A stretch of 30,339 bases of DNA from a virus: the IMG/VR virus record IMGVR_UViG_3300033816_001298, positions 1 through 30,339 of that record. One strand, 5' to 3'. Below the pieces are notes generated by a model, which made no database searches, was not told the DNA's origin, and was given only the letters and a program-made list of their open reading frames with translations. The first letter of the stretch is position 1. Every line of letters starts with the position of its first letter. Made by a program: the position numbers and the translations under genes. Positions 18,376 through 30,339 of the stretch are shown here, piece after piece.

Positions 18376-18924
18376 ATGCCTACCATTCTCCGCGACAAGT
18401 CCGCCACGCTCACCGCGTCAATCGAGGACCTGAACCACACCTTCCGCGCCCTGCGCGGTGAGCCCGACCACCCCGGGTTCACGAACGTCGACGCCGCCCG
18501 CACGCAGGTGCAAAACGCCATCATGGCCGCCGAGGACGCGGTCGGGCACGTCGGCGTCCCGCCCAACACCCGCCCCCGCGCCAAGACCGTCGCCGAGCTC
18601 GGGCACAACCCGTACGTGCCGGGGTCGATGAGCCATGCGCTGCACGCCGCTGTGCACGCGCAGCAGCCCATCGCCCCGCGCACGGCGCTGCCGGCGCAGC
18701 CCCGCGTCAAGTTCTCCCGGGTCCGCGCCACGTTCGCCGGCACGTCTCGGCCGCAGGCAGGCTCCGTGCGTGCCGCGGTGCTAGCCTACGTGCAGGCGGC
18801 CCCCGACAACTGCTGCACCATCGAGGCGCTGGAAAAGCACTTCGCTCAGCCCGTGCGCGGCTACCTGCAGAAGCTGATCGAGAAGAACCACCTGAACCCC
18901 GTCACAGAGGAGACGCAGCAATGA
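18376..18924 (+). CDS. Phage protein with possible C-terminal winged helix
   Basis: This 182-aa protein starts at ATG 18376, after the conserved leader; an in-frame ATG upstream lacks a ribosome site. It begins MPTILRDKSATLTASIEDLN, and the first 60 residues are helical. The middle is low-complexity (APRTALPAQPRVKF). The last ~60 residues have SVRAAVLAYVQAAPDNCCTI then EALEKHFAQPVRGYLQKLIE and KNHLNPV, a helix-turn-helix-like arrangement resembling a small winged helix that could read DNA. The overall function is unknown. Its stop overlaps the flavoprotein gene as ATGA. Confidence 0.7.
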   Translation: MPTILRDKSATLTASIEDLNHTFRALRGEPDHPGFTNVDAARTQVQNAIMAAEDAVGHVGVPPNTRPRAKTVAELGHNPYVPGSMSHALHAAVHAQQPIAPRTALPAQPRVKFSRVRATFAGTSRPQAGSVRAAVLAYVQAAPDNCCTIEALEKHFAQPVRGYLQKLIEKNHLNPVTEETQQ

Positions 18925-19832
18925 CCATCACACCCACCATCGTCGGCGCCGGGCTCGCGGGGCTGATCGCGGCGCACGCGTGGCCCACCGCGACGGTCCT
19001 TGAGGCCGGTCCCGGCCCGCGGCAGGCGCACCGGGCGCTGCTGCGGTTCCGCACGGACGCCGTCGCGCGGCTGACGGGCATCGAGTTCCGCCGCGTCACG
19101 GTGCGCAAGGGGCTCTGGGCCGCGGGCGAGTTCTGCGCGCCCAACATTCGGCACGCCAACACCTACGCGCAGAAGGTGCTCGGCCCCGATCGGCTGCTGG
19201 GCGACCGTAGCGTCTGGAACCTCGACACCGTCGAGCGGTTCATTGCGCCGGAGACGTTGTACGAACAGATGATCGAGGCCGTCGGGCCGCGCATCCACTG
19301 GAACACCCCGGCAGACTTCGCCGGCATGCGCGGCGCGGTCGTGAGCACGGCACCGCTGCCCGCGACGCTGGCGGCGCTGGGCATGAAGCCGGAGTGCGAC
19401 TTCCCGCGGGCGCCGATCACGGTGTCGCGCTGGGTGGTGCCCGGGGCGGACGTGTTCCAGACGGTGTACTTCCCCGAGCCGCACCTGAGCGTCTACCGCG
19501 CCAGCATCACCGGCTCGACGCTCATCGTGGAGTCGGTCGGGCCGCTGGAGCTGGAAGACATCGGGGCGGTGGAGCACGCTTTCGGGGTGCGCAAGGACTG
19601 CTGGGTGAACAAGGAGCAAGTCCAGCAGTCCTTCGGCAAGATCGCGCCGATCGACGACGCGCTGCGCAAGCAGCTCTTGTTCCGGCTCACGCATGAGCAC
19701 AACGTGTTCTCGCTGGGGCGGTTCGCCACTTGGCGCAACATCCTGCTCGACGATGTGGTCGACGACATCGTGCAGGTGAAGCGGCTGTTGAAGTCGAGCA
19801 GCGCCTACGACCTGCGGAGGGCCGCAGCATGA
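18921..19832 (+). CDS. FAD-dependent oxidoreductase-like flavoprotein
   Basis: This is a 303-aa protein. The N-terminus has a dinucleotide-binding Rossmann motif IVGAGLAGLIAA (GxGxxG at 9-14) followed by an acidic residue at the end of the second strand (TVLEAG, E28), which binds the ribose of FAD. Later come VWNLDTVERFI, GAVVSTAPLPATLAALG (a second strand-loop typical of this class), and the C-terminal SLGRFATWRNILLDDVVDDI, the 'GR.a.Wr....Ddvv.d' flavin-contact end found in UDP-galactopyranose-mutase/amine-oxidase-like proteins. The substrate is unknown. It overlaps the genes on both sides (ATGA) and lies just before thyX, whose product also uses FAD. A link to nucleotide metabolism or base modification is inference. 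Confidence 0.72.
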   Translation: MTITPTIVGAGLAGLIAAHAWPTATVLEAGPGPRQAHRALLRFRTDAVARLTGIEFRRVTVRKGLWAAGEFCAPNIRHANTYAQKVLGPDRLLGDRSVWNLDTVERFIAPETLYEQMIEAVGPRIHWNTPADFAGMRGAVVSTAPLPATLAALGMKPECDFPRAPITVSRWVVPGADVFQTVYFPEPHLSVYRASITGSTLIVESVGPLELEDIGAVEHAFGVRKDCWVNKEQVQQSFGKIAPIDDALRKQLLFRLTHEHNVFSLGRFATWRNILLDDVVDDIVQVKRLLKSSSAYDLRRAAA

Positions 19833-20199: not shown

Positions 20200-20205
20200 A
20201 ACGTG

Positions 20206-20931
20206 ATGAAGGTCTCTCTCATCAGCCACACGCCTCACGCGGCGGAGCTGCTCATCTTCACCAAGTCCACGCGACTGAACATGTCGCCGGGCTTGATGGA
20301 CGAGATCATGAGCTGGCCCGAAGACAAGAAGCTCGCCGAGCTCGAATACATGGCCGCCACTATCCCCAGCTCGTGGGAGTTCGTCGACTACGTGTTCATG
20401 ATCGAAGGCGTCAGCCGCGCCTTCACCCACCAGTTCGTGCGGAGCCGCAACGCCAGCTACGCTCAGCAGACGATGCGCGTGCTGGACATGGGCGAGTACG
20501 ACTACGTGCTGCCCGACCGGGTGGCGAACAATGCTGACGCGGCGGGCGTCGTGGGGCTGGTCAACCACCAGATCCGCAACGCCTACCGCCGGCTCATCCA
20601 GCTCGGGCTCCCGCCCGAGGACGCCCGCGGCATTCTCCCCACCAACATCGCCACCAACATCTGCGCCAAGTTCAATCTCCGCGCCTTGTCGGAGCTGGTG
20701 GCGAGCCGCACCGGCGGCCGTACGCAAGGCGAGTACCAGCGCGTGGCGCAAGCCATGGCCGACGCTGTGCTCGCCGTGCACCCTTGGGCGGCGAAGTTCC
20801 TGTTCAGGCAGGGGCGCGACCACTTCGCCGAGATCGAGGCGTGGGCTGAGGCGGAGTACGGCGGCGACCTGCTCAAGAAGGGCAAGTTGCTCAAGATCGT
20901 CGACGCCATGCGCAAGGACCGTCAATCATGA
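20206..20931 (+). CDS. thyX: Flavin-dependent thymidylate synthase (ThyX)
   Basis: This 241-aa protein probably makes dTMP from dUMP using FAD, NADPH and methylene-tetrahydrofolate. I chose ATG 20206 over a GTG just before it because of spacing from AAAGGAA. The ThyX layout is clear: VDYVFMIEGVSRAFTHQFVR then SRNASYAQQTMR, where the usual RHR..S motif reads RSRNAS (79-84). Then come ARGILPTNIATNICAKFNLR and ALSELVASRTGGRTQGEYQR, matching the 'LP....T.....N.R.L.hf...R....AQ.EI' substrate-binding end. The middle His of RHR is Ser here. The 3' end overlaps the denV-like gene by ATGA. The call is confident; whether dUMP is the only substrate is not known. Confidence 0.87.
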   Translation: MKVSLISHTPHAAELLIFTKSTRLNMSPGLMDEIMSWPEDKKLAELEYMAATIPSSWEFVDYVFMIEGVSRAFTHQFVRSRNASYAQQTMRVLDMGEYDYVLPDRVANNADAAGVVGLVNHQIRNAYRRLIQLGLPPEDARGILPTNIATNICAKFNLRALSELVASRTGGRTQGEYQRVAQAMADAVLAVHPWAAKFLFRQGRDHFAEIEAWAEAEYGGDLLKKGKLLKIVDAMRKDRQS

Positions 20932-21781: not shown

Positions 21782-22074
21782 ACACCGCAGCAGACATCCT
21801 CGACGACATGGCCGCCACGTTCCGTGAGCGCAACGCGGTGTACGGCGACAACTTCAAGATGGTCGGACGGATGATGGCGGTCTTGTTTCCCAAAGGGGCG
21901 CCGCCAGAGCTGTTGCACTCGGACCAATTCCATCTGTTCGAGCTGATCCTCGTGAAGCTGAGCCGGTACGCGATCAGCGGCTTGCAGCACGTGGACTCTA
22001 TCCACGACGCGGGCGTGTACTGCGCCATGTGTGAAGCCATCAATCTCAACAAGCAGCAGGAGAACTCACAGTGA
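21778..22074 (+). CDS. DUF6378-like phage protein
   Basis: The start is ATG 21778, overlapping the previous stop as ATGA. The 98-aa product begins MNTAADILDDMAATFRERNA followed by VYGDNFKMVGRMMAVLFPKG, and ends DSIHDAGVYCAMCEAINLNK. The '.ILD..A..FRERNAVYGDN....G.....LFP' opening, a DQFHLFELILVKLSRYA core and a late 'DS..D.G.Y.A' helix match DUF6378, a small helical phage family related in pattern to MazG-like folds. No catalytic proof is visible. Its setting between a phosphatase and the SDR suggests nucleotide housekeeping (inference). Confidence 0.78.
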   Translation: MNTAADILDDMAATFRERNAVYGDNFKMVGRMMAVLFPKGAPPELLHSDQFHLFELILVKLSRYAISGLQHVDSIHDAGVYCAMCEAINLNKQQENSQ

Positions 22075-22751
22075 GCAAGATATTGGTGACAGGGTCGGGC
22101 GCCGGGTTGGGCGCGGCCATCGCGTACGAGTTGCGCATCGCGGGGCACGAGGTGTTCGACTTCGACCGCAAGAAGGGGCACGACGTGCGCTTCCCGGCCA
22201 CGACTTACGGGCCGCCGCCGGAGAAGTTGGACATCCTGGTGAACTGCGCCGGCATCAACAAGACCGCGTGGCTGGAGGACCTGGAGCAGGACGTCTGGGA
22301 CGAGGTGATGGAGGTGAACGCAAAGGGCATCTACCGCATGGCCCAGTGGGCGCTGCCCGAGTTGATCAAGTCCCACGGCACCATCCTCAACATCGTGAGC
22401 AACGCGTCGCACATACCGATGACGACCTCTCTCGCCTACAACGCCAGCAAGGGCGCGGCGCACATCATGACGTTGCAGCTGGCGCGTGAGCTCACCAAGA
22501 AGCACGGCATCACCGTCTTCGGCATCAGCCCCAACAAGCTGCGCGGCACCGAGATGTCGCAGGACATCGAGGACCAAGTTGTTGCGCTGCGCGGCTGGAC
22601 CCGGGAGTACGCCGCGCAGTACCAGCTCAACGCGCTGCTCGCGGGCGAGGAGACCGACCCCGCACAGCTCGCTGACTTCGTCGCCCACCTTCTTTCAACC
22701 AAGCCCCGGCACAAATTCCTCACCGGGTGCGTCCTTCCCTACGGAGCCTGA
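22071..22751 (+). CDS. Short-chain dehydrogenase/reductase (SDR)
   Basis: This 226-aa protein starts at GTG 22071 (GTGA overlap; AGGAGA upstream). It has the classical SDR set: TGSGAGLG (7-14, nucleotide binding), NCAG (58-61), a VNAKG segment (82-86), the catalytic Ser region SNASH (110-114), and Y123-x3-K127 (YNASK). It is a complete, apparently active NAD(P)-dependent oxidoreductase of normal length. The substrate is unknown. A metabolic enzyme like this is uncommon in a phage of this size. It may act on sugars or nucleotides in a modification pathway together with the flavoprotein (18921), but that is inference from neighbourhood only. Confidence 0.88.
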   Translation: MSKILVTGSGAGLGAAIAYELRIAGHEVFDFDRKKGHDVRFPATTYGPPPEKLDILVNCAGINKTAWLEDLEQDVWDEVMEVNAKGIYRMAQWALPELIKSHGTILNIVSNASHIPMTTSLAYNASKGAAHIMTLQLARELTKKHGITVFGISPNKLRGTEMSQDIEDQVVALRGWTREYAAQYQLNALLAGEETDPAQLADFVAHLLSTKPRHKFLTGCVLPYGA

Positions 22752-26629: not shown

Positions 26630-27017
26630 GTTGCGCAAGGTTGCCGCTGGGCGGCTGCACACCGAGCGCATCGAAAATCTCGTCGGAGCCGGTCGCCCGG
26701 ACCTCGACACGTTGGTGGGCGGGAGCTTCATGCCTATCGAGCTCAAGCAAATTGACGGTTGGCCCGCCCGGCCCGCCACCCGAGTGCTGGGCGACCGCGG
26801 GCTGAGCCAAGTGCAGAAGAACTGGCACCTGAACTGGCGCAATTGGGGCGGCCAGTCGCTCATTGTCGTCGGGGTGGCGGACGAGGTGTTCACGTTCAAC
26901 GGCGCGACCGCGGACCACGTCAACGAATACAACACAGCTCAGTTCCGCGCCGCCGCGATGCGCATCGGAGCCGAACCGCTCGTGGACATGCTGATCCAAC
27001 TCGGAGAACGAAGATGA
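26595..27017 (+). CDS. VRR-NUC-like PD-(D/E)xK nuclease
   Basis: This 140-aa protein starts at GTG 26595, about 35 bp inside the end of the polymerase gene. The nuclease core reads GAGRPDLDTL (D36) and GSFMPIELKQ (E49-x-K51), then 'LSQVQKNWHLNW', the VRR-NUC/Holliday-resolvase-like 'Q..w' end. A basic N-terminal helix (MSRRPEQRLWDRLRK) precedes it. VRR-NUC proteins in phages cut branched or recombining DNA. It lies between the polymerase and the SNF2 helicase (ATGA overlap), which supports a replication/repair role. Confidence 0.82.
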   Translation: MSRRPEQRLWDRLRKVAAGRLHTERIENLVGAGRPDLDTLVGGSFMPIELKQIDGWPARPATRVLGDRGLSQVQKNWHLNWRNWGGQSLIVVGVADEVFTFNGATADHVNEYNTAQFRAAAMRIGAEPLVDMLIQLGERR

Positions 27018-28492
27018 AAACTCAGGGCATGCAACACCAGCTGCAAGCCGTCCAACGCATGGTCGGGCGCCGCACCTATGCGCTGTTCATGGAACAAGGC
27101 ACAGGCAAGACCTGGACGTTGCTCGCGGACGCCGAGCGGCTGTACGCCAAGGGCTCCATCGACTCCGTGCTCGTCGTGGCGCCCAACGGCGTGCACCTGA
27201 ACTGGGTCACGCGCGAGATCCCCGCGCACATGGAAGGCACCATCGTCGCGCGTGCGTGGCGCTCGGGCGCCGGGGCGCGGGACATGCGGGCGCTCGAAGA
27301 GCTGTTTCAGCCGCGGCCGGTGGGTGCGCCGCCGCCGTTGCGGGTGCTGGCGATGAACATCGACGCGCTGGTGACCAAGAAGGGGTGCGCCTGCGCCGAG
27401 CGGTTCTTGCTCTCGGGCAAGGCGCTGATCATCCTGGACGAGAGCTCCCGCATCAAGAACCCGGACGCCGCGCGCACCAAGGCGCTCATGCGGCTCAGGC
27501 GCATGGCGGTCGGCGCGCGCATCGCGTCCGGCACCCCGGTGACGAACTCGCCGGTGGACATCTTCGCGCAGATGGAGTTCTTGGAAAGTGGCTTGCTCGG
27601 CACCACGAGCTACCGGGCGTTCGTGGCCGAGTACGCGGACGTGCTGCCCAACACGCATCCGCTGATCCAGAACATGGTCAGCCGCAACCCCAAGGCGGCG
27701 TACGCGCAAGTGATCGCCCGCAACCCTGACGGCTCGCCGCGGTGGCGCAACCTCGACAAGCTGCAGCGACTGCTCGAGCCGAATTCGTTCCGCGTGTTGA
27801 AGAAAGACTGCCTGGACCTGCCCGACAAGATCTACAAGACCATCACGTTCGAGCTCGACGCGCAGCAACAACGCGCCTACGACAAGATGCAAGACGAGCT
27901 GCGCATCGAGCTCGGCGACAACACCGAGCTACCCGTCAGCGAGCTGGCCGCGCTGATCAAGTTGCAGCAGATCACGAGCGGGTACGTGAACACCCCGATG
28001 GGCGTGCGCTACATCTCCGCGGACAACCCACGGCTCAAGACGCTGCTCGACGCGATCGAGGACGTGGAAGGCAAGTTCATCGTGTGGGCGCGGTTCCGCG
28101 AGGAGCTGGACGCGATCTCGGATGCGCTCACCGATGCGGGCGTCGCGTGTGTGCAGTATCACGGCGGGGTGAGCCGCGACAACCGTGAAGCTGCGGTCGA
28201 TCAGTTTCAGAACGGTGATGTGCGCGTCTTCGTGGGTCAGCCCCAGTCGGGCGGCATCGGGCTCACGCTCACCGCGGCGGAGACGGTGTTTTACTTCAGC
28301 AACGACTTCAACCTCGAGACGCGGCTGCAGAGTGAAGACCGCGCTCACCGCATCGGCACGAAGAAGAACGTCGTGTACATCGACATCGCCGCCGAGAACA
28401 CGATCGACGAACAGATCACCAAGAATTTGCGCCGCAAGAAGCGTACCGCCGCACTCGTACTGGGCGACCGCGTCGCGGCGACGCAAGGATAA
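27014..28492 (+). CDS. SNF2/SF2 helicase
   Basis: This 492-aa protein starts at ATG 27014 (ATGA overlap with the nuclease gene). Motif I is MEQGTGKT (26-33), Ia VLVVAPNGVHLNW, II LDESSRIKNP (D142, E143), III ASGTPVTNSP. The second RecA domain has FIVWARFREELDAI, VFVGQPQSGGIGLTLTAAE and the motif VI stretch LQSEDRAHRIGTKKNV. This is the small 'naked' SNF2-type helicase widely found in phages next to a VRR-NUC nuclease. Motif II is DESS instead of DEAH. It would remodel or unwind branched DNA in phage replication or recombination. No extra domains are seen. Confidence 0.9.
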   Translation: MKTQGMQHQLQAVQRMVGRRTYALFMEQGTGKTWTLLADAERLYAKGSIDSVLVVAPNGVHLNWVTREIPAHMEGTIVARAWRSGAGARDMRALEELFQPRPVGAPPPLRVLAMNIDALVTKKGCACAERFLLSGKALIILDESSRIKNPDAARTKALMRLRRMAVGARIASGTPVTNSPVDIFAQMEFLESGLLGTTSYRAFVAEYADVLPNTHPLIQNMVSRNPKAAYAQVIARNPDGSPRWRNLDKLQRLLEPNSFRVLKKDCLDLPDKIYKTITFELDAQQQRAYDKMQDELRIELGDNTELPVSELAALIKLQQITSGYVNTPMGVRYISADNPRLKTLLDAIEDVEGKFIVWARFREELDAISDALTDAGVACVQYHGGVSRDNREAAVDQFQNGDVRVFVGQPQSGGIGLTLTAAETVFYFSNDFNLETRLQSEDRAHRIGTKKNVVYIDIAAENTIDEQITKNLRRKKRTAALVLGDRVAATQG

Positions 28493-28493
28493 T
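28488..28493 (+). promoter_or_regulatory. Possible -10 element upstream of 28528
   Basis: GATAAT overlaps the stop codon of the helicase gene and is followed by TC, resembling the thyX upstream TATAATTC. No -35 of the TTGCC type is at the right distance, so support is weak. Confidence 0.3.
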
Positions 28494-28527
28494 TCGTCCT
28501 CAGAACCGCTAGAAAGGAAACTGTCCC

Positions 28528-28863
28528 GTGCCGAAAGTCTACGCTCCGCAGGTGCCGTCGAAGTACGACGGCGCCACCAAGTTGTGGGTGCCTTCCATCA
28601 ACGTCGATCACGCCAAGAATTTCGGCGAGGTGATCGTGATGTTGCCCCCGAATGCCAACCGCTTGCACATCGCGCCATTGGTGACCGCGTTGCGCGAACA
28701 GATGAAGGACTACGGTCCCGACGACCACATCATCGCTGTGGGCGACCCGTCGCTGATCGCGGCCGCGGCGTGCATCGCTGTGCGCAAGACGGGCGGGCTG
28801 TTGAAGGTTTTGAAGTGGGACCGGCAAACGTCGGCGTACGTCTCCGTGGAGGCACAGGTATGA
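28528..28863 (+). CDS. Conserved phage protein of unknown function
   Basis: This 111-aa protein uses a GTG start at 28528, preceded by AGAAAGGA (a variant of the shared leader). It begins MPKVYAPQVPSKYDGATKLW, continues with EVIVMLPPNANRLHIAPLVT, and ends with HIIAVGDPSLIAAAACIAVR then TGGLLKVLKWDRQTSAYVSV. The '.GDHIIAVGDPSLIAAAA.IA....GG...lLKWDR....Y' ending is conserved in many phages beside the next two genes, but no role is known. There is no membrane segment; it looks like a small globular alpha/beta protein. It overlaps the following gene by ATGA. Confidence 0.78.
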   Translation: MPKVYAPQVPSKYDGATKLWVPSINVDHAKNFGEVIVMLPPNANRLHIAPLVTALREQMKDYGPDDHIIAVGDPSLIAAAACIAVRKTGGLLKVLKWDRQTSAYVSVEAQV

Positions 28864-29369
28864 GCGACTTGAAGCGTGCGGTGCAGATGGCAGAGACGTT
28901 GCTTTCTGCGCGCAAGATCGTGGAGCGGCTGGAGTCTGAACTCGCCACGGCCAAAGCTGACGTGCAGCGCCTGGAGCAGGAAGACCTGCCCGACCTGATG
29001 CAGGAGCTTGGGCTGAGCAAGTTCGTGCTCAACACCGGAGAGACATTGGAGGTGCAGCCTGACGTCACCTGCGCCATCACCGAAGAGCGCCGCGCCGCCG
29101 CGCACAGCTGGCTGGTGGACCGCGGGTTCGGCGGCTTGATCAAGACGGAGGTGGTCGTTTCCTTCGGCCGCGGCGAGCACGGCGAGGCGGAAGACTTTGC
29201 CAACGCATGCGCCGAACAAGGCAAGCACCCCAACCTCATCGAGCGCGTGCACCCCAGCACGCTCAAGTCCTTCATCAAGGAACAGATGGCCGCGGGCACC
29301 GCGATTCCGTTCGACGTGTTCGGTGTGCATCCGTTCCAGCGCGTCAAGATCACGGCGCCCAAGCGCTAA
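28860..29369 (+). CDS. Phage protein with N-terminal coiled coil
   Basis: This 169-aa protein starts at ATG 28860 (ATGA). Residues 1-50 form a coiled coil (SARKIVERLESELATAKADV then QRLEQEDLPDLMQEL). The rest is a conserved globular part with LSKFVLNTGETLEVQPDVTC, AAHSWLVDRGFGGLIKTEVV and VHPSTLKSFIKEQMAAG and a closing 'PFDVFGVHPFQRVKI'. This 'D.P..M.E.G...F.L..G..+.V', 'A..WL...G.G.LIK..V...FGRGE' and 'VHP.TLK.F..EQ' set is common in phages, usually next to a protein like the one at 29435. A partner in DNA binding or recombination is a fair guess from the neighbourhood. Confidence 0.75.
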   Translation: MSDLKRAVQMAETLLSARKIVERLESELATAKADVQRLEQEDLPDLMQELGLSKFVLNTGETLEVQPDVTCAITEERRAAAHSWLVDRGFGGLIKTEVVVSFGRGEHGEAEDFANACAEQGKHPNLIERVHPSTLKSFIKEQMAAGTAIPFDVFGVHPFQRVKITAPKR

Positions 29370-29373
29370 CGCA

Positions 29374-29407
29374 AACCGCTCTGTGGGGCGGCGGTTCTGT
29401 GCCCCAC
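29374..29407 (+). promoter_or_regulatory. Predicted H-type RNA pseudoknot in the leader of 29435
   Basis: In the 65-nt gap between the stop at 29369 and ATG 29435, AACCGC (29374-29379) pairs with GCGGTT (29391-29396), and GTGGGGC (29383-29389) pairs with GCCCCAC (29401-29407). The two perfect stems interlock: the 5' arm of the second lies in the loop of the first, and the 3' arm of the first lies in the loop of the second. Loops are 3, 1 and 4 nt, which fits classical H-type geometry. The segment from there to the start codon looks unstructured and has only a weak ribosome site. There is no T-run, so it is not a terminator. Autoregulation is inferred. Confidence 0.6.
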
Positions 29408-29434
29408 GCAACGCAAGAAAGTGAGATCCTGATC

Positions 29435-30277
29435 ATGAGCAAGAAAAACACTGCTGCGGTCGCCGTGGCGCAAGAGACCTCCACCGCGCTGGCGCTGCCG
29501 CCGATGGACTTTGCCGCGGACGCGGGGCAGGGCATGGAAGGTGCGGGGCAGGATTCGTTCGCGATCCCGTTCCTGAGCGTGCTGCAGAAGGGTTCGCCGC
29601 AAGTCGACGAGGCGTCCGGTTCCGCCATCGAAGGCGCGCGCTCCGGCATGCTGTTCGAGAACGTCACCGGGCGCATGTTCCCGGGCAAGGACGGCGTGCT
29701 GATCGTGCCGTGCGCCTATCGCCGTGAGTTCCTGCGCTGGGGCGCCCGCTCCAACGGCGGCGGCTTCAAGGGCGCGTCCACGCCCGAGGCGGTGGCCGAC
29801 GCCCGCGCCAAGGGCCAGATCGTCGAGTTGAATGGGCGGCTCTACACGCCCGAGCCCGACGGCTCCGTCAACCCCGAGAAGAGCGACCGGTTCAACGACA
29901 CGCGCAACCACTACGTGCTGATCCTGGACGAAGCTACGGGCGGCTGGACCGAGGCGCTGCTGTCGCTCACCTCCACCCAGATCAAGAAGTCCAAGATGCT
30001 CATGTCGGCACTCGCCGCGGTGAAGCTCAAGAACGGCGCGGGGCAGATGTTCACGCCGCCCACATTCGCCAACTGCGTCCGCGTCACCACCGTCCCGGAG
30101 AGCAACGACAAGGGCACGTGGTTTGGCGTCAAGTTCGAGCTCGCCGGGCAAGTGACGCGCAACGAGGTCTACGCCGCGGCCAAGGCTTTCCACGCCAACC
30201 TCGCCAAGGGCGCCGTCAACGTCCGCTACGAGGACCAGGCGCCAATCGAAGAGGTCGCTCAGGAGTCGGGCTTCTAA
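29435..30277 (+). CDS. Candidate single-stranded DNA-binding protein
   Basis: This 280-aa protein starts at ATG 29435. It begins MSKKNTAAVAVAQETSTALA with a flexible Ala/Gly-rich N-terminus. The conserved core has SFAIPFLSVLQKGSPQVDEA, ARSGMLFENVTGRMFPGKDG, VLIVPCAYRREFLRWGARSN and GGGFKGA. Then come NHYVLILDEATGGWTEALLS, STQIKKSKMLMSALAAVKLK, and GTWFGVKFELAGQVTRNEVY. Beta-rich segments separated by loops, and an acidic tail ending in Phe (APIEEVAQESGF), are like phage or bacterial SSBs, whose acidic tips recruit other replication proteins. The family is widespread in phages and usually follows the 28860-type gene, but its biochemistry is not something I can name with certainty. The pseudoknot upstream strengthens the SSB idea. 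Confidence 0.6.
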   Translation: MSKKNTAAVAVAQETSTALALPPMDFAADAGQGMEGAGQDSFAIPFLSVLQKGSPQVDEASGSAIEGARSGMLFENVTGRMFPGKDGVLIVPCAYRREFLRWGARSNGGGFKGASTPEAVADARAKGQIVELNGRLYTPEPDGSVNPEKSDRFNDTRNHYVLILDEATGGWTEALLSLTSTQIKKSKMLMSALAAVKLKNGAGQMFTPPTFANCVRVTTVPESNDKGTWFGVKFELAGQVTRNEVYAAAKAFHANLAKGAVNVRYEDQAPIEEVAQESGF

Positions 30278-30339
30278 TCCCCGCGATCGTTGTGCCCTGG
30301 GCCTATATACGAACGCTATTGGGTCCGGGGCTCCACTGG
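30278..30339. other. Right-hand end, non-coding in view
   Basis: 62 bp after the last stop; no ribosome site, start or hairpin with T-run is visible. Confidence 0.5.

Follow-up and report, generated by a model that had tools for sequence, protein, structure and literature searches.

An H-type pseudoknot of conserved shape in the leader of a Pam3_Gp34-family, probably SSB-like phage gene, and its possible role in autogenous control

The window considered here is a virus record of 30,339 bases, taken at its full length, in which the gene for a 280-aa protein of the Pam3_Gp34 family follows a 65-nt leader bounded by the TAA of the preceding gene (29367–29369) and the ATG at 29435. The original prediction placed in such an intergenic leader an H-type pseudoknot of 6 and 7 bp with loops of 3, 1 and 4 nt, and the extent of the leader as well as the letters and coordinates of the pseudoknot match it exactly (Table 1). 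That preceding gene, which stops shortly ahead of the pseudoknot, belongs to PF23984 (Pam3 gp33-like, DUF7307). Its members in phages PB1 and F8 differ at one residue, R73 in PB1 and L73 in F8, which is also the single difference reported between the Gam proteins of PB-1 and F8; the accessible part of PMC12407980 describes Gam, there called orf54 (PB1_gp54 in the sequence record), as a GamMu-like DNA-end-binding protein that licenses Gabija. Because the family members differ solely where the reported Gams do, the gene in the window very likely codes for a diverged DNA-end-binding protein of the GamMu kind. Farther upstream lie a Pam3_gp32-like gene, a helicase-like gene and a DNA polymerase gene. 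Elsewhere in the window, the phage carries a ThyX thymidylate synthase (20203–20931), a short-chain dehydrogenase (22071–22751) and an open frame (18921–19832) that lacks a Pfam match and begins with a Rossmann-like motif, GAGLAGLIAA.

Table 1. Features at the locus in the window, and stem sequences in four of the more distant relatives
Feature	Position	Strand	Basis or remark
Helicase-like gene, phrog_62	27014–28492	+	Start codon chosen by analyst; frame open from 26759
Pam3_gp32-like gene, PF23992, no known function	28528–28863	+	Pfam
PF23984 (Pam3 gp33-like, DUF7307) gene	28860–29369	+	Pfam; ends just before pseudoknot
Stem 1, 5′ strand AACCGC	29374–29379	+	Sequence reading and alignment of close leaders
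Loop 1, TCT (3 nt)	29380–29382	+	Sequence reading
Stem 2, 5′ strand GTGGGGC	29383–29389	+	Sequence reading and alignment of close leaders
Loop 2, G (1 nt)	29390	+	Sequence reading
Stem 1, 3′ strand GCGGTT	29391–29396	+	Sequence reading and alignment of close leaders
Loop 3, CTGT (4 nt)	29397–29400	+	Sequence reading
Stem 2, 3′ strand GCCCCAC	29401–29407	+	Sequence reading and alignment of close leaders
A-rich linker, holds AGAAAGTGAG	29408–29434	+	27 nt, to ATG 29435
280-aa Pam3_Gp34-family protein, probable SSB-like	29435–30277	+	PF23977, phrog_2402
L112, 5′ strands of stems 1/2: AAGGGC/GCTCGC			
L116, 5′ strands of stems 1/2: AGGCG/GGTGTGC			Stop codon forms loop 1
L039, 5′ strands of stems 1/2: AAGCG/GTTGCGC			
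L135, 5′ strands of stems 1/2: CACGC/GCCCGGC			

The stems have duplex energies of −7.6 (stem 1) and −13.5 kcal/mol (stem 2). When both strands of the window are scanned for perfect pseudoknots (6–7 and 7–8 bp without G-U pairs, loops of 1–3, 0–1 and 3–5 nt), this pseudoknot is the sole match, and six dinucleotide shuffles of the window, one strand each, yield none. At a looser score of at least 37, there is one match in the window and 1, 1, 0 and 2 in four shuffles. Nested folding of the leader is likewise unremarkable, with a z of 0.33 and 120 of 200 shuffles at least as stable. Given the matches in shuffled sequence and the ordinary nested folding, the window by itself is insufficient to settle the pseudoknot, which is settled instead by its conservation, with compensatory change, among relatives.

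A protein search of IMG/VR returned 13 close loci, 12 of which reach the leader, and all 12 have the pseudoknot at the same place. The original prediction had proposed covariation in related leaders as a check on both stems. In an alignment of the window with seven close loci (eight rows, seven of them distinct, as L014 repeats L006), 97.8% of paired cells hold standard pairs, with both sides changed in five of the seven stem 2 pairs and one of the six stem 1 pairs; the two non-pairs are the outer stem 1 pairs of L006. None of 500 shuffles equaled the observed pairing, and sliding the partner columns by 1–3 positions lowers it to 34.9–59.1%. More distant relatives retain the topology with other letters in the stems (Table 1). 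L117 and L119 share GCCGCGC as stem 2 and have a stem 1 of 12 bp in which nine pairs are changed on both sides and one on a single side. Judged from these alignments, the pseudoknot in the window is confirmed at its predicted coordinates, and the comparison shows that shape rather than letters is conserved between the upstream stop and the ribosome site of the gene.

How widespread the pseudoknot is was surveyed under one scoring scheme, in which a leader passes at 29.5 or above with the 3′ end of stem 2 lying 8–40 nt before the start codon. The scorer permits G-T but not A-C pairs, so that wobble counts carry no information on strand. In a first set, 23 of 68 leaders pass; dinucleotide shuffles do so in 15 of 2720 cases, and GC-matched windows from the same loci in 74 of 2600. 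The searches for relatives were capped, one of them at 80 of 593, and the 68 leaders were hand-picked as distinct among the loci collected first, omitting near-copies, partial genes, loci with no clear start and most of a distant group at 33–36% identity (of L060–L111, only L060, L061, L062, L065 and L067 are included); phage F8 (L169) also lies outside the 68. As the cut-off was set after inspection of the first leaders, only a later set was scored after it had been fixed, and here 8 of 36 leaders pass against 20 of 3600 shuffles. Six of these eight are new, while L201 and L217 repeat the pseudoknots of L039 and L038. The later set derives from the best 80 of 148 relatives, of which 39 loci were tried and three had no start codon; the other 41 were judged from the listing, unaligned, to duplicate earlier contigs, to be near-copies or to hold partial genes.

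Thinning the combined 104 rows to less than 95% identity (identities here are crude global match fractions) leaves 97 representatives, and a strong pseudoknot is present in 26. Grouped by the distance between the genes, none of 44 representatives pass below 40 nt, 21 of 41 at 40–90 nt, four of nine above 90 nt, and one of three with no recognized upstream gene, which is the only case apart from leaders of at least 40 nt. At 55% identity or more to the protein in the window (n = 20), 19 representatives have a 40–90-nt leader and 16 of these pass; among the remaining three, L113 and L123 have a stem 1 rich in G-U, and L200 has no pseudoknot by eye. At 45–55% (n = 24), five of eight such leaders pass, and below 45% (n = 53) none of 14, with five of the 53 passing overall. 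L113 (28.0), L123 (25.0) and L199 (25.5) appear pseudoknot-like by eye, fall below the cut-off and are uncounted. None of the 17 named phages scored with a Pam3_Gp34-family gene has a passing pseudoknot; these comprise phages of Serratia, Pseudomonas, Escherichia, Salmonella, Xanthomonas, Dinoroseobacter, Vibrio, Luteibacter, Burkholderia, Bordetella, Stenotrophomonas and Aeromonas, and two uncharacterized ones. A DNA pattern scan of viral contigs found eight stretches. Seven lie on contigs already among the relatives, and the eighth, L025, seems by eye to be unrelated. A scan of genome contigs for the host matched 57 stretches, none of them a relative.

On a tree of the 68 proteins, in which L113 and L123 are labeled as having the pseudoknot although both lie below the cut-off, the label requires five changes, at least four of them forced by well-supported branches. 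One fork of 20 rows (support 92/99) unites 19 labeled members with L129, whose genes overlap by 1 nt, and its sister group consists of L051, L130 and L132, whose genes overlap by 4 nt. L041, L058 and the L054–L057/L156 group stand apart in the tree and may represent independent gains; the leaders of the last group differ in architecture.

Other leader elements came to light among the relatives. The leaders of L054, L055, L057, L148–L156 and L158 contain a hairpin, CTTCAAACT(GTGGCA)AGTTTGAAG, with a loop able to pair either with GGCCAT upstream of it or with TTGCCA downstream, some with an additional outer pairing, GGAGAGAC/GTCTCTCC; those of L054, L055 and L057 are 148–227 nt long, and the arrangement is a possible switch. 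In three Mesyanzhinovviridae (L021, L164, L165), gaps of 142–225 nt between the gp33 and gp34 genes hold no passing H-type pseudoknot; instead, the gp34-like gene is preceded by a common block resembling CTATC-GACCGGGGG ... CCCGCTCA, which may be a promoter or a further leader element. The gp34 leader of phage PB1 (L017) has, by eye, a hairpin with a GNRA-type loop, CAGTTA-GCGA-TAACTG, possibly a simpler form of control site.

What kind of protein is encoded behind the pseudoknot? The 280-aa protein matches PF23977 (Pam3_Gp34) with 252.1 bits (cut-off 27, E 8.1e-75), and Pfam gives nothing else for it at E up to 1; neither gp32 nor the classical SSB family PF00436 appears at that level, in agreement with the original view that the protein is unrelated to gp32. 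The corresponding phrog_2402 carries no assigned function, and tblastn finds the family in 503 of 50,697 phage records. A sequence search of the PDB returned nothing credible. AlphaFold2 models of the 280-aa protein (pLDDT 83.6) and of L059, a homolog of 298 aa encoded on a viral contig (80.4), are beta-rich, and Foldseek against the PDB gave no match at E 0.001 or better. For both models, the best VIA structural match is the phiC31 recombination directionality factor, with Z 8.5 over 155 residues at 4.3 Å and Z 7.8 over 152 residues at 3.8 Å, at 6–9% identity. Below it come many OB-containing proteins, among them BRCA2 (7.0 and 4.3), SsbA/SsbB, RPA, MCM, Rim1 and PRD1 P12, as well as a few others such as NusG and DNA polymerase epsilon. 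VIA cautions that a Z under 8 may reflect merely a common arrangement; since 8.5 and 7.8 lie near that level, the predicted fold, weakly scored, is called OB-like rather than proven OB. A search of a library of predicted viral structures gives 34 matches at E 0.001 or better; among those beyond this level are proteins named SSB (7.2e-3) and recombination directionality factor (3.2e-3). As a separate matter, the predicted gp34 fold resembles the phiC31 factor more than any other solved structure listed, which hints that this factor may derive from an SSB-like phage protein.

An acidic tail with a terminal phenylalanine is typical of SSB and T7 gp2.5, and such a tail, which the original prediction had noticed, is borne out in the window (EEVAQESGF) and across the family: among 68 relatives the last residue is F in 63, Y in three and M in two, and the last 20 residues have a net charge of −1 or lower in 59 (mean −2.8). 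The gene is single-copy in all 32 records searched, and PF00436 is found in none of these 32, 14 of which are virus records and possibly fragments, as compared with 10 of 14 control genomes. PF10991 (Enc34-type SSB) is equally missing from the 32 and has no match in the controls either, and is hence uninformative. Vibrio phage VP2 has, besides its gp34-like gene, a separate gene labeled SSB, which PHROGs also names SSB and which has no Pfam match; this counts against the gp34-like protein as "the only SSB". Taken together, we infer that the Pam3_Gp34-family product is probably the single-stranded-DNA-binding protein of the phage.

Between the pseudoknot and the start codon, AGAAAGTGAG at 29416–29425 begins 9 nt past stem 2, is conserved among close leaders and is likely the ribosome site. 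Across 20 pseudoknot leaders, the linker measures 14–34 nt (mean 21.9) and is A-rich (mean 40% against a locus background of 22%). The 27 nt first described as unstructured are of that length, but a special lack of structure is not supported: the linker in the window has a mean unpaired value of 0.56 against 0.59 in shuffles, and pseudoknot leaders as a group have 0.67 against 0.67. In 15 relatives with no pseudoknot, linkers are more A-rich (48%) and more unpaired (0.74). Neither UUAAA nor UAAA occurs in the linker of the window.

These observations can be assembled into a mechanism in which the pseudoknot is a cis-regulatory platform for the Pam3_Gp34-family gene. The leader of its mRNA would fold into the H-type pseudoknot, and the OB-like, acidic-tailed product would act as the phage SSB. 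Once in excess over the available single-stranded DNA, this protein would dock on the pseudoknot of its own mRNA and span the short A-rich linker to the AGAAAGTGAG ribosome site, blocking initiation, a feedback of the T4 gene 32 kind that would have arisen independently. In T4, according to the accessible parts of PMC535899 and PMC3014915, gp32 nucleates on the pseudoknot and then spreads across the ribosome site over less structured sequence. Because the linkers here are short and no less structured than shuffles, spreading along a long single strand is not supported, and it is more plausible that one or two proteins would block initiation. Covariation, enrichment over shuffles, the single-copy gene, the SSB-like C-terminus, the OB-like matches and the precedent of T4 and RB69 gp32 speak for such feedback; the weak fold scores, the features of the linker, the many relatives and 17 of 17 named phages with no passing pseudoknot, and the case of VP2 count against it. 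We consider it the best-fitting mechanism, with an even chance of being correct.

Comparison with known systems delimits the likeness. In the excerpted text of PMC535899 and PMC3014915, the gene 32 operators of T4, T2 and RB69 likewise open the leader with an H-type pseudoknot, followed by a stretch with the ribosome site, before a phage gene for a single-stranded-DNA-binding protein, here a probable one, and are also missing in some relatives, such as RB49. The protein family here is, by Pfam, unrelated, the linkers of 14–34 nt contrast with more than 40 nt in T4 (PMC535899, in part), the linker of the window lacks the UUAAA repeats of T4, and autoregulation, known for T4, is here a proposal. 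Of the T4-like feedback originally proposed, the conserved pseudoknot, the SSB-like C-terminus, the OB-like prediction and the replication and DNA-end neighbors are supported, while the linkers and the named phages speak against a close copy of the T4 operator. In E. coli rpsO, the pseudoknot overlaps the ribosome site, in contrast to the present one, which ends 14–34 nt before the start codon. The rpsO element, in a cellular ribosomal gene, is a translational-operator pseudoknot bound by the product of its own gene, S15 (PMC3014915, as excerpted), as is putatively the case here. The STAXI motif also comprises a pseudoknot near genes for single-stranded-DNA-binding and other DNA-handling proteins, but as described in the consulted part of Weinberg et al. 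(2010; PMC2864571) it has two or three repeats and frequent UUCG tetraloops, which sets it apart, by description, from a single H-type pseudoknot. The phiC31 factor gp3 is alike in fold only, as the top match of two predicted models, and no integrase role is indicated for the gp34 family.

Several other roles for the pseudoknot have to be weighed against feedback by the SSB-like product. First, it might act on translation with no protein ligand, either setting the Gam-like gene apart from the SSB-like gene by halting the run-on of ribosomes that terminate upstream, or fixing the rate of standby or initiation for the downstream gene. Its place directly after the upstream stop codon and its complete lack of passing examples where genes lie less than 40 nt apart would fit, as would a conserved shape with changing letters, yet a plain hairpin would suffice for this task and 20 of the 41 representatives with a 40–90-nt leader do without a pseudoknot. 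We regard this as unlikely, though less so than the next two readings.

Second, the pseudoknot might govern mRNA stability or processing, protecting the Gam-like message or setting its amount relative to the SSB-like message. The phage may require the products of the two flanking genes at different levels, and the accessible part of PMC3014915 reports processing close to the operator for T4 gene 32 mRNA too; against this, no terminator-like site was found on the plus strand of 28000–30339, and the idea seems improbable.

Third, and just as improbable, the ligand could be a different one, such as a host ribosomal or other RNA-binding protein, the Gam-like protein or, in the manner of a riboswitch, a small molecule. 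Some riboswitches use small pseudoknots. So do ribosomal-protein operators, S15 being an example (PMC3014915, in part). However, Rfam 15 gives no match at the gathering score in the window and 20 related loci, and the letters of the stems and of most loops vary among leaders, unlike a small-molecule pocket.

Finally, two explanations are refuted and retain a negligible probability. Programmed frameshifting or stop-codon readthrough from the upstream gene could be imagined in the window, where the downstream gene lies in the −1 frame, which is open throughout the leader, but the offset is not constant: among the 23 pseudoknot leaders for which an upstream gene was recognized it is 0 in 5, 1 in 14 and 2 in 4, and in several leaders (e.g., L004, L005, L116) the downstream frame closes within a few codons. 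Chance pairing in GC-rich sequence, compatible with the ordinary nested folding, the passing GC-matched windows and the 0–2 matches per shuffled window noted above, fails against the covariation with its slid-partner controls, the L117/L119 comparison and the recurrence in the later set.

Returning to feedback by the SSB-like product, a search of the open-licence PMC literature on the family and on pseudoknot control of phage SSB genes returned papers on T4-type gene 32, and nothing on the present motif was recognized there. In its most complete form, the proposal is that the pseudoknot is a new RNA motif, an operator for autogenous SSB control that is convergent with that of T4, belongs to a clade of uncultured phages, is lost together with the leader and was possibly gained repeatedly; we hold this tentatively, at slightly below an even chance. 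To find a covarying pseudoknot before an SSB-like gene in a family unrelated to that of T4 would suggest that evolution arrives repeatedly at knotted leaders as a means of SSB feedback. It would also propose a function for a large family that has no assignment in spite of its presence in those 503 phage records, and the natural variants of the leader would offer material on how such a protein may recognize RNA by its shape.
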